Shown piece by piece: positions 37,984 to 46,458 of a DNA stretch of 64,000 nt. Where the stretch lies: contig CAMDLP010000006.1 of NCBI GenBank assembly GCA_945901795.1, positions 1 to 64,000 on the forward strand, read 5' to 3'. A program made the position numbers and the translations under genes. Source of the DNA: Akkermansia muciniphila. Lineage in GTDB: Bacteria > Verrucomicrobiota > Verrucomicrobiia > Verrucomicrobiales > Akkermansiaceae. The first letter of the stretch is position 1; each line of letters begins with the position of its first letter. The notes under the pieces are model-generated. The model made no database searches, had not been told where the DNA came from, and was given only the letters and a program-made list of their open reading frames with translations.

Positions 37984-39711
37984 ATGTCTCACGATAAAGT
38001 CCAAATCATCCGCCTCACGTGGAAGCGCCTTCGCAGCGCTTTGCGGATGTTGGTGCGCTCGGAGCAGGGACCGAAGGCGGTGATGTTTGCTGTGACTTTG
38101 ATGCTGCTGATGATGGCAATCAACGGTTTGAACGTCCTTAACAGCTACGTCGGCCGGGATTTCATGTCGGCGATCGAGAACCGCAATATGGACGTTTTCA
38201 AGCAGCAGGCGCTGTTTTACGTGGGGGTTTTCCTCGTCTCGACGGTGGTGTTGGTTTTCTTCAGATTCACCGAGGAGCGGTTGGGAATTCTCTGGCGCGA
38301 GCAACTGACACGGCGCCTCACGGATGCTTATCTCAAGGATCGCACGTATTACCGCTTGGATTCGGCCACCGGTGTCGCCAATCCGGACCAGCGGATTTCT
38401 GACGATGTGCGCGCGTTCACGACCACGACGCTTTCCTTCATCCTGCTCATCGTCAATGGGACTCTAACGGCAATTTCGTTCTCCGGCGTCTTGTGGACCA
38501 TCAGTCCGCTTCTGTTTGCCGTCGCGGTGGTCTATGCGCTGTGCGGTTCGGCGATGACGATTTTCCTCGGCAAGCCTCTGATCCGGCTGAATTACAACCA
38601 GCTCGACATGGAGGCGAATTTCCGTTCGGACCTGATCCACGTGCGGGAAAACTCCGAGTCGATCGCGCTGGCCCATCGGGAAGGTCGTTTTAAGGCGCGC
38701 TTGAACAAGCGGCTCGACGCCCTGACCGCCAATTTCCGTCGATTGATCCGGATCAACCGCAACCTTGGGTTTTTCACGAACGGCTACAACTATTTCATCC
38801 AGATCATCCCGGCATTGATCATCGCGCCGATGTTCATCTGGGGCGACAGTGAGTTCGGGGTGATCACCCAGTCCACGATGGCGTTCGCCACCTTGCTCGG
38901 TGCGTTTTCCCTGATCGTGACGCAGTTCCAATCGATCTCGGCGTTCACCGCGGTCATCGCTCGGTTGCACACGCTCAGCGATGCGATTGAAAACGCGCAG
39001 CGGACATCACCTTGCACCATCGCGATCGAGGAATCGCCGGACCGGGTCGCCTATCAGAATGTGACGCTGCGCTCGGCGGACAAGACCCGCCTGTTGGTTT
39101 CCAACCTGAATCTTGAGATCGCCCGTGGCTCGCGCTGGCTGGTGATCGGAAAGGACGACGCGCCGAAACTGGCGTTGTTCCGCGCGACCGCGGGCGTGTG
39201 GGAATGCGGCGGCGGACACATCATCCGGCCGGGCCTGGATGATATTCTGTTTCTGCCGGAGCGGCCCTATCTGCCGCCGGGAACCTTGCGCGAGGCCTTG
39301 CTGCGGACGGGAATGGAGTTGGTCACTCCGGATTCCGTGATCATGGACGTGCTGGTGAAGTTGGGCCTCCAAGACGTGGTGAAGCACGCGAACGGCCTCG
39401 ATACCGATCACGATTGGGACAACCTGCTCTCGATCGGCGAGCAGCACCTGCTCTCCGTGTCGCGGATTTTCCTCGCGAAACCCGCGTTCGTCTTTCTCGA
39501 TCGTCCGGGCAGCGCGCTTCCCAAGAGCCAGATTTCAAAGATCCTCGATATGCTCACGGAGCAGGGGATCGGTGCGGTGATCTTGTCCAAGAACGGCGAG
39601 TCACGCCTGCGTTACGACGCCGTCCTGGAAATCAAGGCCGACGGCGTGTGGGAAGTGCGCCATGAAGCGCCTGCGGATTCCCACAAGGAATTACACGACC
39701 TAAGTTGCTAA
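37984..39711 (+). CDS. ABC-transporter-like membrane protein (SbmA/BacA-YddA type) with degenerate ATPase domain
   Basis: 575 residues from ATG 37984. Residues 1-340 are an ABC_membrane_2-type domain of about six helices (NVLNSYVGRDFMSAIENRN, DQRISDDVRAF, RENSESIALAHREGRFK). The rest aligns by eye to the matching ATPase domain, but its key positions are changed. Walker A is GKDDAPKL (389-396) where GPSGSGKS is expected. The Q-loop reads LPERPYLPPGTLRE with Glu for Gln. Walker B is FVFLDRPGSAL with Arg for the catalytic Glu, and the H-switch is SKNGES. Only the signature LSIGEQ (482-487) is intact. It is probably unable to hydrolyse ATP. The family exports or imports peptides, fatty acids or cobalamin. 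Confidence 0.82.
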   Translation: MSHDKVQIIRLTWKRLRSALRMLVRSEQGPKAVMFAVTLMLLMMAINGLNVLNSYVGRDFMSAIENRNMDVFKQQALFYVGVFLVSTVVLVFFRFTEERLGILWREQLTRRLTDAYLKDRTYYRLDSATGVANPDQRISDDVRAFTTTTLSFILLIVNGTLTAISFSGVLWTISPLLFAVAVVYALCGSAMTIFLGKPLIRLNYNQLDMEANFRSDLIHVRENSESIALAHREGRFKARLNKRLDALTANFRRLIRINRNLGFFTNGYNYFIQIIPALIIAPMFIWGDSEFGVITQSTMAFATLLGAFSLIVTQFQSISAFTAVIARLHTLSDAIENAQRTSPCTIAIEESPDRVAYQNVTLRSADKTRLLVSNLNLEIARGSRWLVIGKDDAPKLALFRATAGVWECGGGHIIRPGLDDILFLPERPYLPPGTLREALLRTGMELVTPDSVIMDVLVKLGLQDVVKHANGLDTDHDWDNLLSIGEQHLLSVSRIFLAKPAFVFLDRPGSALPKSQISKILDMLTEQGIGAVILSKNGESRLRYDAVLEIKADGVWEVRHEAPADSHKELHDLSC

Positions 39712-42937: not shown

Positions 42938-43025
42938 GTCCTGCTTAACGTCGGACACGCCGGAAAGCGTCGAGCGGATTGAAGCCGTCGGCCGCTGGAT
43001 GGAGGTCAACGGCGAGGCGAATTAC
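42938..43025 (+). pseudogene. Alpha-L-fucosidase (GH29) C-terminal scrap with frameshift
   Basis: The frame VLLNVG at 42938-42955 and, one frame over, PESVERIEAVGRWMEVNGEANY at 42960-43025 are adjacent. Together they match the conserved GH29 region in which LLLNVGPT is followed by SVERLxxVGxWMxxNGEAIY. A frameshift and loss of the intervening residues make it non-functional. The second part is fused upstream to a signal-peptide-like start (MIKLTKILLLALVP, from 42897). It ends abruptly at the aldehyde dehydrogenase gene on the other strand. Confidence 0.65.
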
Positions 43026-43882
43026 GCGCCGATAGGGTGCCAGGTGGTCTTCGCCTCGAGGTGGTCGCGGATTTCGTAGAGGCCCTGGGCGTTTTCGGCG
43101 AACCAGTCGGTGGGTGTTTCACAGGGGATGAGCTTGAGGCGCTTGACGCTCTCAGACGCGCCGATTTGGAGGGCTTTGCGTTCTTCAAGATTTCCGACAG
43201 CGGCGAGTCCGCGCAGGTGCGCGTGGGTGGCGAAGGTGGGGATGAGCTCGCCGCGCTGGCCGGTGAGCAGGTTGACGACTCCGCCGGGCAGGTCGCTGGT
43301 GGCGAGCATCTCGCCTAGCAGGATCGACGGATAGGGCTGGGTGGTGGAGGCGAGCGCGACCACCGTGTTTCCGCTGGTGATGGCGGGCAGGACCAGCGAG
43401 AGTAGGCCTAACAACGGAGCATCGTCCGGCGCGACGATGCCGATGATGCCCATCGGTTCGGTGACGGTGAAATTGAAATGTGAGGATGCGACCGGGTTCA
43501 CGCTGCCGAGCAGGGCTTGGAACTTGTCCGTCCAACCGGCGTAGTGGACGATTCGCTCGATGCTGGCGCGGACTTCGCGGTCGGCGTCCTTATTGGAAAT
43601 GCCGGACAGCGAAATGGCGTCCGACATTTCCGCAGCGCGGGCTTCCAACATCTCGGCGAGGCGATAGAGGATCTGCCCGCGGTTGTAAGCGTTTCGGGCG
43701 GCCCAGCCGGGTCCGGTCTTGGCGGCGGCTTCCACGGCGTTGCGCAAATCCTTGCGGCTGCACAGCGGGATGTTCGCGAAGAACGCGCCGGAGGCGTCGG
43801 TGAGCGGATAGACGCGGCCGCTCTCAGATCGGATGAAACTACCGCCGACGTAGCACTTGGGAGTTTTGGTGATTCTAAGCAT
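43022..43882 (-). CDS. Aldehyde dehydrogenase half-protein lacking the catalytic domain
   Basis: 286 residues covering only the N-terminal coenzyme-binding part of the ALDH fold: YVGGSFIRSESGRVYPLTD, MGIIGIVAPDDAPLLGLLSLVLPAITSGNTVVALAS, LPGGVVNLLTGQRGELIP. The ELGGK glutamate and the catalytic cysteine block are absent. The C-terminus (EAKTTWHPIGA) is clean, and the gene follows the full ALDH by 32 bases in the deoC operon. It is therefore more likely a natural partner or scaffold protein than a fresh truncation. However, its end coincides with a gene scrap, so loss of a 3' part cannot be excluded. Confidence 0.7.
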   Translation of the reverse strand: MLRITKTPKCYVGGSFIRSESGRVYPLTDASGAFFANIPLCSRKDLRNAVEAAAKTGPGWAARNAYNRGQILYRLAEMLEARAAEMSDAISLSGISNKDADREVRASIERIVHYAGWTDKFQALLGSVNPVASSHFNFTVTEPMGIIGIVAPDDAPLLGLLSLVLPAITSGNTVVALASTTQPYPSILLGEMLATSDLPGGVVNLLTGQRGELIPTFATHAHLRGLAAVGNLEERKALQIGASESVKRLKLIPCETPTDWFAENAQGLYEIRDHLEAKTTWHPIGA

Positions 43883-43914: not shown

Positions 43915-45396
43915 TTATGTCAGATTTGCGTAATCGAGCAGCCCTTGTTTCCCACCTTCGCGGCCGAAGCCGGATTCCTTGTAGCCGCCGAAGGGCGAGG
44001 CGGGGTCGAATTTGTTGAAGGAGTTCGCCCAGACGACGCCGGCTTTGAGCTCGGTGGACATTTTCAAAATGCGCGAGCCCTTGTCGGTCCAGATCCCGGC
44101 GCTCAGGCCGTAACAGGTGTTGTTGGCTTTCTCCACGGCTTCCTCCGGCGTGCGGAAGGTGAGGATGGAAAGCACCGGCCCGAAAATTTCATCGCGGGCG
44201 ATGCGGTGGCTCATGGCGACCTTGGAAAACAGGGTCGGCGGGAAGTAGAAGCCTTTTTTCGGAAGCTCGCAGTCGGGCTGGTAGAGTTCCGCGCCCTCGG
44301 CGATGCCGCAGGCGACGAGTTCGCGGATGCGGTCGAGCTGGGCTTGCGAGTTGATAGCGCCGACGTCGGTGTTCTTGTCGAGCGGGTCGCCGGTGCGGAG
44401 GGATTTCAGGCGGATCTTGAGTTTGGATAGAATCTGCCCGGCGATGGATTCCTGCACGAGCAGCCGCGATCCGGCGCAGCAGACGTGGCCTTGGTTGAAG
44501 AAGATGCCGTTGATGATGCCTTCGACGGCTTGGTCGATGGGGGCGTCTTCGAAGACGATGTTAGCCGCCTTGCCGCCGAGTTCGAGGGTGAGGCGTTTGC
44601 CGGTTCCTGCGAGCGCACGCTGGATGGATTTGCCGACTTCAGTGGAGCCGGTGAAGGCGATTTTCGCGGCGAGCGGGTGATTGACCACTGCGGCTCCGGT
44701 CTCGCCCGCGCCGGTGACGATGTTGACGACGCCCGGCGGTAGGCCGGCATCTTGCAAAATGGAGGCGAACTTGAGGGCGGTGATCGACGTGGTTTCCGCG
44801 GGCTTGAGGACCACGGTGTTGCCGGTGGCGAGGGCCGGTGCGAGTTTCCATGCGAGCATCAGCAGCGGGAAATTCCACGGAATGATCTGGCCGACGACTC
44901 CTAACGGCGCGAGCGGGCGGCCGGGGGTGACGTAGCCGAGCTTGTCCGCCCAGCCGGCGTGATAGAAGAAATGTGCGGCAGCCATCGGCACGTCGAAGTC
45001 GCGGGATTCTTTGATCGGCTTACCGCCGTCGAGCGTCTCGGCGACGGCGAATTCACGGGCGCGGTCTTGGAGCAGGCGGGCGATGCGGAACAGATATTTC
45101 GCACGCTCGGTGCCGGGGAGTTTGCTCCATGATGTGAACGCTGTGGCGGCGGCCTGATAGGCGGCATCGACATCGGCGGCTCCGGCGAGGGCGATTTCTG
45201 ACAGCTTCTCCTCGTTGCGCGGGCTGATGGAGTCGAAGTATTTTTTGGTCTTGGGCGCGACGAATTTGCCGTTGATGAAAAGGCCATAGCGCGGCTCGAT
45301 GAAGGCGGGCGCGGATTCCGGGGCGGGATCGTATTCCCAGAGATCGCCGAAGAGGAGTTCGCGGGCAGCGGGGAGGGTGGTTTTTTTGGCGGGCAT
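43915..45396 (-). CDS. Aldehyde dehydrogenase (NAD-dependent)
   Basis: A full-length 493-residue ALDH. VGQIIPWNFPLLMLAWKLAPALATGNTVVLKPAE and FTGSTEVGKSIQRA bind NAD. LELGGKAANIVFEDA carries the general-base glutamate and FFNQGHVCCAGSRLLV the nucleophilic cysteine. It starts one base before the end of the deoC stop region (a single base separates the two), so it is translationally coupled to deoC. It probably oxidises the acetaldehyde released by DeoC to acetate. Confidence 0.92.
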   Translation of the reverse strand: MPAKKTTLPAARELLFGDLWEYDPAPESAPAFIEPRYGLFINGKFVAPKTKKYFDSISPRNEEKLSEIALAGAADVDAAYQAAATAFTSWSKLPGTERAKYLFRIARLLQDRAREFAVAETLDGGKPIKESRDFDVPMAAAHFFYHAGWADKLGYVTPGRPLAPLGVVGQIIPWNFPLLMLAWKLAPALATGNTVVLKPAETTSITALKFASILQDAGLPPGVVNIVTGAGETGAAVVNHPLAAKIAFTGSTEVGKSIQRALAGTGKRLTLELGGKAANIVFEDAPIDQAVEGIINGIFFNQGHVCCAGSRLLVQESIAGQILSKLKIRLKSLRTGDPLDKNTDVGAINSQAQLDRIRELVACGIAEGAELYQPDCELPKKGFYFPPTLFSKVAMSHRIARDEIFGPVLSILTFRTPEEAVEKANNTCYGLSAGIWTDKGSRILKMSTELKAGVVWANSFNKFDPASPFGGYKESGFGREGGKQGLLDYANLT

Positions 45397-45397
45397 A

Positions 45398-46333
45398 TCA
45401 GTAAGCTGAGGAAGATTCGGAAAAGGTGTAAGGTGCCTGATAGCAGCCGGTTTTCTCCTTCACCAGTTGGCGGACGAGGTCGTTAAGCAGGGCGGAGGCG
45501 CCGAAGCGGTAGCGGGTGTTAGTCAGCCAGGCGTCGCCGAGGGTTTCCTTGACGGCGACGAGGAAATGCAGCGCCTGCTTGGCGGTGCGGATGCCGCCGG
45601 CGGGCTTCATGGCGATCTCGATGCCGGTGGCGAGGAAGTGGTCGCGGATGGCTTCGAGCATCACCTGGTTGTTGCCGAGCGTGGCGTTGAGATTGGTTTT
45701 TCCGGTCGAGGTTTTGATGAAATCGCCGGGGCGAAGGACCCGCATCGCGAGGAATGAGGCGGCGCGGATGTTGTCGTAGGTTTCGAGCTCGCTGGTCTCG
45801 AGGATCACCTTGAGCGTGCGATCGCCGCAGGCTTCGAGCACGGCGGAAATTTCGTCCTGCACGAGCTGGAGTTCCCCGGCGAGGAAGGCACCGCGATTGA
45901 TGACCATGTCGATCTCATCCGCCCCGTCTGCAACAGCGGCGCGAACTTCCGCGAGGCGGGTTTTGAGTGGGGCTTGGCCGGAGGGGAACGCGGTGGCGAC
46001 GGAGGCGATTTTGACCGGCGTCCCTCTCAGGTGTTTTAACGCGTGCCTCACCATCGACGGATAGACGCAAACGGCCGCCGTCGGCGGGATGTCCGTGTCG
46101 TCGTGAGGGCGGAGGGCTTTCTGGCAGAGCGAGGCGACCTTGCCCGGCGTGTCCTTGCCTTCAAGCGTGGTCAAATCGACCATCGCTGTCGCAAGCTTCA
46201 GGCCGAAGACCTTGGCGTGCTTCTTGATGCTGCGGGTGGCGTATTTGGCGACGCGCTCGTCGATGCCGACTTGATCGACCGTTCCGACGTCGTTGAGGAG
46301 GTCCTGCAAGGCTTGGAAGTTCCGCATGGCCAT
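45398..46333 (-). CDS. deoC: Deoxyribose-phosphate aldolase, long (eukaryote-like) type
   Basis: About 311 residues from ATG 46333 (ATG 46327 is also possible). This is longer than the 220-260 residues of most bacterial DeoC and close to the eukaryotic DERA form. Schiff-base lysine text FIKTSTGKTNLNATLG, the second active-site lysine region EIAMKPAGGIRTAKQAL, and DEIDMVINRGAFLAGE are present. It splits 2-deoxyribose-5-phosphate into glyceraldehyde-3-phosphate and acetaldehyde. It leads the operon deoC-ALDH-ALDH half. The phosphopentomutase that would supply its substrate is broken at 2622-2953. Confidence 0.92.
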   Translation of the reverse strand: MAMRNFQALQDLLNDVGTVDQVGIDERVAKYATRSIKKHAKVFGLKLATAMVDLTTLEGKDTPGKVASLCQKALRPHDDTDIPPTAAVCVYPSMVRHALKHLRGTPVKIASVATAFPSGQAPLKTRLAEVRAAVADGADEIDMVINRGAFLAGELQLVQDEISAVLEACGDRTLKVILETSELETYDNIRAASFLAMRVLRPGDFIKTSTGKTNLNATLGNNQVMLEAIRDHFLATGIEIAMKPAGGIRTAKQALHFLVAVKETLGDAWLTNTRYRFGASALLNDLVRQLVKEKTGCYQAPYTFSESSSAY

Positions 46334-46458
46334 CGGCTGGAGGCTCACCGGAAAGCGGCGGGCTGCCAAGGTTCAAGTGGCGGTGCATCGCAAAAAAGCC
46401 TTGGAGAATCCAAGGGAATCGTCTATCGCTCGAACTCGTTTTTAACCATCAAACCGCC

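Follow-up and report, generated by a model that had tools for sequence, protein, structure and literature searches.

The DNA analysed here, a stretch of 64,000 nucleotides from Akkermansia muciniphila (the window), carries a forward-strand gene that runs from an ATG at 37984 to a stop codon ending at 39711 and encodes 575 amino acids without interruption. Its product is, by fold and ancestry, an ABCD/YddA-type half-transporter, in which a type IV transmembrane domain (TMD) of the PF06472 family, recognised by both profile and model matches, is followed by a former nucleotide-binding domain (NBD) (Table 1). The TMD scores 151 bits against ABC_membrane_2 (cut-off 24.4) and also matches SbmA_BacA at 55 bits and ABC_membrane at 46 bits; ABC_tran reaches only 18 bits, under its cut-off of 25. 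In the AF2 model of the protein (pLDDT 81), a short single N-terminal helix precedes TM1, which starts at about residue 29, and the model superposes over its full length on ABCD1 (Z 27.0), ABCD4 (25.8) and Rv1819c (25.7). The best matches in a viral structure library were ABC transporters only, mostly from giant viruses. A reading made earlier from the letters of this DNA (the sequence-only reading) had claimed that the four ATP-handling motifs are replaced in the open frame while the signature LSIGEQ is retained, and the residues bear this out: Walker A, the Q-loop Gln, the catalytic Glu and the H-switch His are all gone (4/4), with FVFLDRPGSAL beginning at residue 502. The motif list can be refined at two points, as a lysine (K395) is kept at the Walker A lysine position and the D-loop Asp has also been lost (P513).

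Table 1. Features of the transporter gene and its convergent neighbour (positions in the window).
Feature	Positions	Strand	Evidence or remark
CDS, 575 aa: ABC_membrane_2 TMD fused to pseudo-ATPase (degenerate ABC) domain	37984..39711	+	open frame, Pfam, AF2 model
TMD, residues 29-340, TM1-TM6	38068..39003	+	Pfam, AF2 model, dN/dS 0.05-0.11
Intracellular loop 2 / coupling helix 2, residues 219-236, NBD docking	38638..38691	+	short helix 224-230 in model
Pseudo-ATPase (ex nucleotide-binding) domain, residues 345-560, ~215 residues	39016..39663	+	
Walker A remnant GKDDAPKL (389-396)	39148..39171	+	K395 kept; glycines and Ser/Thr gone
Q-loop LPERPY (424-429)	39253..39270	+	Gln to Glu426; L-P-E = 424-426
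Signature LSIGEQ (482-487)	39427..39444	+	still present in window protein
Walker B / D-loop FVFLDRPGSALP (502-513)	39487..39522	+	catalytic Glu to Arg507; D-loop Asp to Pro513
H-switch region SKNGES (535-540)	39586..39603	+	His gone (K536)
F5/8 type C + (alpha/alpha)6 glycosidase-like gene, 1028 aa	39717..42803	-	convergent, 5 bp from transporter

In all, 98 relatives from five phyla are degenerate in the same way (81 remain when the set is thinned at 93% identity). The cultured isolates Chromatium okenii, Lamprocystis purpurea and Rhizobium mesoamericanum are among them, so that the pattern reflects neither chance nor sequencing error. Scanning GTDB genomes yielded 80 named relatives; the closest kin of the window protein are found in Akkermansiaceae and Luteolibacter MAGs, and further kin in Chromatiaceae, Methylococcaceae, Methyloversatilis, Nevskiaceae, Desulfobacterota, Myxococcota, Binatota and Rhizobiales. 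The position of the catalytic Glu is occupied by Arg, His or Lys in most of the family and that of Glu426 by Glu in 79% (weighted); among the 98 degenerate sequences, the Q-loop Glu is combined with an Arg next to Walker B in 54 and with a His in 18. Some Rhizobiales members still have the Q-loop Gln, and the signature glycine (Gly485) is only 31% conserved family-wide. Every motif, including the Q-loop Gln and the catalytic Glu, is kept in 17 of 17 canonical relatives. Conservation of the ATP-site columns falls from 0.93 to 0.55 (-0.38) as against -0.09 for random NBD columns, none of 5000 draws being as low, and the P-loop residues differ across the family. The well-conserved NBD residues are G411, P416, W478, P500, W556 and the segment ERPYLPPGTLR, and conservation of the coupling region is 0.74 in the family against 0.69 in canonical proteins. 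No published description of the family was found in the literature searched, in which subscription papers were thinly covered.

The gene is under purifying selection, with dN/dS well under 1. In the window's closest clade the NBD gives pairwise values of 0.05-0.09 (0.06-0.09 by NG86 between the window protein and its two closest orthologues), and the TMD gives 0.05-0.06 between the window protein and those two orthologues (NG86). NBD values in other family pairs are mostly 0.05-0.2, while NBDs of canonical paralogues, used as controls, give 0.07-0.15; dS is saturated in several of the distant pairs, and it is therefore the close pairs that bear the dN/dS argument. The sequence-only reading had noted that the membrane domain looks healthy where gradual decay would have damaged it too; the domain is indeed healthy, with a TMD dN/dS of 0.05-0.11. 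It had also named canonical motifs in close orthologues, or a dN/dS near 1, as observations that would speak against it. Both came out in its favour: orthologues at 62-96% identity were recovered from the 73 genus genomes searched, and those read out share the replacements seen in the window.

In a tree built from TMD columns only (support given as bootstrap/SH-aLRT), the degenerate family is a single clade (100/96) with the canonical proteins outside it. Because SbmA and YddA had been flagged for their long branches, a careful tree that leaves both out was built as well. On the single-clade topology, the NBD became a pseudo-ATPase once, in a common ancestor, before or during the spread of the family over several phyla. 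The sister of the family (100/98) is a protein from a Planctomycetota MAG (L116, 4994-6727) in which GPDGIGKT and PQRPY are intact, LDR stands for LDE and the H-switch His is absent; its state suggests that the catalytic residues may have been the first to go. Seven genes lack the NBD altogether (L025, L026, L128-L130, L132 and L156), leaving a core of about 340 aa. All but L156 come from the same genus, and their six products end just past TM6 and nest within the family beside the full-length L137 (100/99); L156, from another Verrucomicrobiota family, was left out of the tree. Forcing the full-length members together without the NBD-less ones is rejected (p 7e-7), as is joining SbmA/BacA with either the whole family (AU p 0.0007) or its NBD-less members (AU p 0.0003), and an origin inside the SbmA/BacA clade is thereby ruled out. 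The tree and these rejections together indicate that the NBD was lost here after it had become inactive, and that this loss of the ATPase is, on the phylogenetic evidence, a second one, independent of that in SbmA/BacA.

The docking site on the TMD follows the fate of the NBD. Within the window clade, coupling helix 2 (219-236) has a mean identity of 87% as against a TMD average of 71%. In the NBD-less proteins, it is only 23% identical to the full-length consensus, compared with 65% for the whole TMD and 72-80% for TM4 and TM5, which flank it, and with 52% for the coupling helix of the canonical proteins, which are far more distant; full-length members adjoining the NBD-less branch are intermediate (49%). 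As judged from these identities, constraint on the docking site vanishes along with the NBD and is kept in the window clade, where the dead NBD stays. Two further loci may be mentioned. At L131 (G010:C19, 2130-3850), the TMD and the pseudo-NBD lie in two overlapping frames with one frameshift near a C-run; the frameshift is possibly an assembly error, and L131 was for that reason not counted as NBD-less. L152 (1330-2379) is a copy on a plasmid of Gloeothece citriformis, a canonical-type relative annotated as SbmA/BacA-like that breaks off after its TMD, next to an IS630 element, apparently a recent NBD truncation in another lineage.

The family is linked to genes for glucan enzymes. The convergent glycosidase-like neighbour has no PDB sequence match, and its fold is only distantly like those of glucodextranase and GH94 phosphorylases (TM about 0.42). 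At 24 loci, distributed over Verrucomicrobiota, Gammaproteobacteria and deltaproteobacterial groups, a homologue of it lies within 500 bp of the transporter gene, in more than one orientation. Also recurrent beside the transporter is a gene for a GH94 protein that carries SOGP domains; this protein is homologous (E 2e-183) to 5h3z, which we take to be the Lachnoclostridium phytofermentans 1,2-beta-oligoglucan phosphorylase. The transporter gene stands upstream of this SOGP-type gene, on the same strand and at a distance of 13-309 bp, in ten full-length cases (L054, L058, L063, L079, L083, L086, L101, G089, G019 and G086) and four NBD-less ones (G022, G015, G073 and G194). Across the genus, the F5/8 gene occurs in 36 of the 38 genomes that hold the transporter and in 1 of the 35 others (P 3e-17), and SOGP in 27/38 as against 0/35 (P 2e-11); canonical paralogues are associated with neither gene (P 0.36-0.37), genome kinship being ignored in all of these tests. 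Neither gene was seen beside canonical loci, some of which have short flanks. SOGP lies on a different contig from the transporter in the window genome and was not detected in 11 of the 38 holders, which makes the substrate assignment an indirect one. In Rhizobium binae, a PF10091 glucoamylase gene adjoins the transporter, PF10091 being presumably the domain of GH144 beta-1,2-glucanases, and an apparent GH1 beta-glucosidase gene is present at six Chromatiaceae loci.

Other neighbours were observed as well. In Rhizobiales (L080, L090, L103-L105, L115 and L117; L145, 7320-9704), a phosphoketolase gene adjoins the transporter, in R. binae in addition to the PF10091 gene. In some Verrucomicrobiota (L051, 7741-11412; L048, 7722-11405; L155), the adjoining gene encodes another GH94 enzyme, with Glyco_hydro_94 and supersandwich domains and without SOGP domains, and the cargo may thus vary by lineage. 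Farther along the window, a half-length aldehyde dehydrogenase of 286 aa (43022-43882, minus strand; positions 5-234 of 461 in the Aldedh profile) lies directly downstream of a complete one (43915-45396) and of a DeoC-like gene (45398-46369), and is a possible second pseudoenzyme in the window.

Among known systems, Rv1819c of M. tuberculosis (BacA-Mt, PDB 6tqe) is the best PDB sequence match (E 1.7e-57), with ABCD proteins next, and the model superposes on it over 548 residues (rmsd 2.8 A, 27% identity). Rv1819c and YddA/BclA-type proteins resemble the window protein in TMD family and domain order, but their canonical members keep the Walker A, Q-loop, catalytic Glu and H-switch that the window family has lost. 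Human ABCD1, ABCD3 and ABCD4 likewise share the fold (Z 25.8-27.0) and sequence similarity over both TMD and NBD; unlike the window protein, they are ATP-driven transporters of fatty-acyl-CoA or cobalamin with intact motifs. The type IV fold is also that of the cyclic beta-1,2-glucan exporter Cgt/NdvA (PDB 7znu, Z 24.7), which belongs to another subfamily (structurally aligned, the two are 14% identical) and exports by means of ATP. As Cgt/NdvA carries a beta-1,2-glucan (PMC11842490), a protein of this fold may plausibly have a glucan as its cargo.

With regard to SbmA/BacA (SLiPT), the sequence-only reading had proposed that the protein may work without ATP, as SbmA/BacA does with the proton gradient. 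SbmA/BacA is likewise an ABC-derived TMD that functions without an ATPase, and the NBD-less family members have the same architecture in outline. The window protein, on the other hand, retains a pseudo-NBD, as do most family members, lacks the two extra N-terminal helices (TM0) of SbmA/BacA and conserves coupling helix 2, whereas SbmA/BacA has neither NBD nor coupling helices. SbmA/BacA is tied to peptides, the window family to glucan enzymes. The glutamate ladder of SbmA consists of E193, E203, E269, E276, E287 and E378 (PMC13316013), and the equivalents in the window protein are D140, L150, N203, E210, R221 and A320. Only the E276 equivalent is acidic throughout the family, with Asp or Glu at the E193 position, and canonical YddA-type ABC proteins also have acids at these two positions. 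With the ladder absent, a proton path of the SbmA type is not supported, and such a ladder is ruled out at the residue level. Thus, of the earlier proposal, the ATP independence stands as likely, given the nested NBD-less kin, while the residue-level mechanism of SbmA falls with the ladder and the AU tests. The five charged TMD residues R58, E97, D208, E210 and R259 never vary among the full-length members, and the NBD-less ones conserve them too; they are better candidates for coupling than the ladder.

Taking these lines of evidence together, we favour, with moderate confidence, an ATP-independent homodimeric transporter that keeps its pseudo-NBD docked as a scaffold and likely carries gluco-oligosaccharides. 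We infer transport without ATP, as well as substrate and direction, from sequence. The homodimer would work by alternating access, driven by the gradient of an ion or a solute or else by facilitated transport. The pseudo-NBD would stay docked through coupling helix 2 and ERPYLPPGTLR as a dimerising and gating scaffold, and the Q-loop Glu and the Arg or His next to Walker B may pair their charges and so hold the empty site, possibly through a salt bridge between E426 and R507. The pseudo-NBD may, on its sequence, nevertheless bind nucleotide in some unusual mode. The cargo, beta-1,2-linked by association, would probably be imported and passed to the cytosolic GH94 phosphorylase.

The sequence-only reading had suggested that the remnant domain may be kept for regulation. 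In this alternative, which we consider rather unlikely, the pseudo-NBD would be the sensor of an ATP-independent transporter and bind cargo or a metabolite, such as a sugar phosphate, in the old nucleotide site. The charge-swapped site (acidic P-loop positions, Q to E, E to R or H) is kept by most family members, and the phosphorylase-type enzymes encoded nearby would yield sugar phosphates. However, the P-loop residues are variable, and the most conserved NBD residues serve the fold and the contacts with the TMD, which a docked scaffold fits better than regulation; the domain is, moreover, deleted in the same operon context and hence dispensable there. There is a smaller chance that the protein does not transport at all, and that a dead ABC transporter has here become a membrane sensor or a scaffold for assembly. 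No energy source is apparent in the sequence and the ladder glutamates are absent, but no part of the protein is more constrained than the TMD (mean top-residue frequency 0.70, compared with 0.60 in canonical relatives), and because of this it probably still transports. The persistence of its five charged residues argues in the same direction, and the catabolic enzymes in the operons suggest uptake.

It is less probable still that the window protein is the degenerate half of a heterodimeric exporter, to which it would give the signature while a canonical partner gives Walker A, Walker B and the H-switch. There are well-known heterodimers in which one of the sites is degenerate (PMC7544095), and LSIGEQ is kept in the window clade. 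In TmrAB, BmrCD and TAP, one NBD also lacks catalytic residues, but the canonical partner keeps one site, whereas all members of the present family are degenerate. The window genome has three other exporters, of the PF00664 family, and no other ABC_membrane_2 (PF06472) protein, which rules out a partner from the same family there. Of the 36 genomes of the genus that encode the degenerate protein, 27 have no canonical family paralogue, no ABC gene is among the most recurrent neighbours, and both the poorly conserved signature Gly and the existence of NBD-less members speak against such a dimer. Finally, a decaying pseudogene, or residues mis-called through sequencing error, has next to no chance of being correct and is ruled out. 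Decay would be expected to erode motifs gradually, and relative G010:C19 does have a frameshift between TMD and NBD, but the pseudo-NBD has a dN/dS of 0.05-0.2 and identical replacements occur in isolates of several phyla.

The ATP-independent transporter that we favour is of wider interest for the evolution of ABC proteins. A 2026 study proposed that SbmA/BacA arose when the TMD of a YddA-like ABC protein parted from its ATPase, arguing from the end points together with a small number of split genes (PMC13316013). The window family preserves, within one clade, what by their sequences are apparent stages of ATPase loss, and probably records an ATP-driven pump turning into an ATP-independent transporter; in Luteolibacter-like bacteria, the same enzyme gene adjoins either a form that carries the dead domain or one that lacks it. 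This makes it testable whether an ABC transporter can switch its energy source, which of the ATP motifs go first and which later, and what purpose a dead NBD serves. We give about even odds to the broader proposal that this is an undescribed, widespread family that would not be driven by ATP, would use its dead ATPase as a mechanical part, would have passed through canonical, half-dead, dead and deleted stages independently of SbmA, and would count beta-1,2-gluco-oligosaccharides among its cargoes. Automatic SbmA/BacA-like labels can mask such a difference in architecture and mechanism; the full-length degenerate member of Rhizobium binae is automatically labelled "SbmA/BacA-like family transporter".
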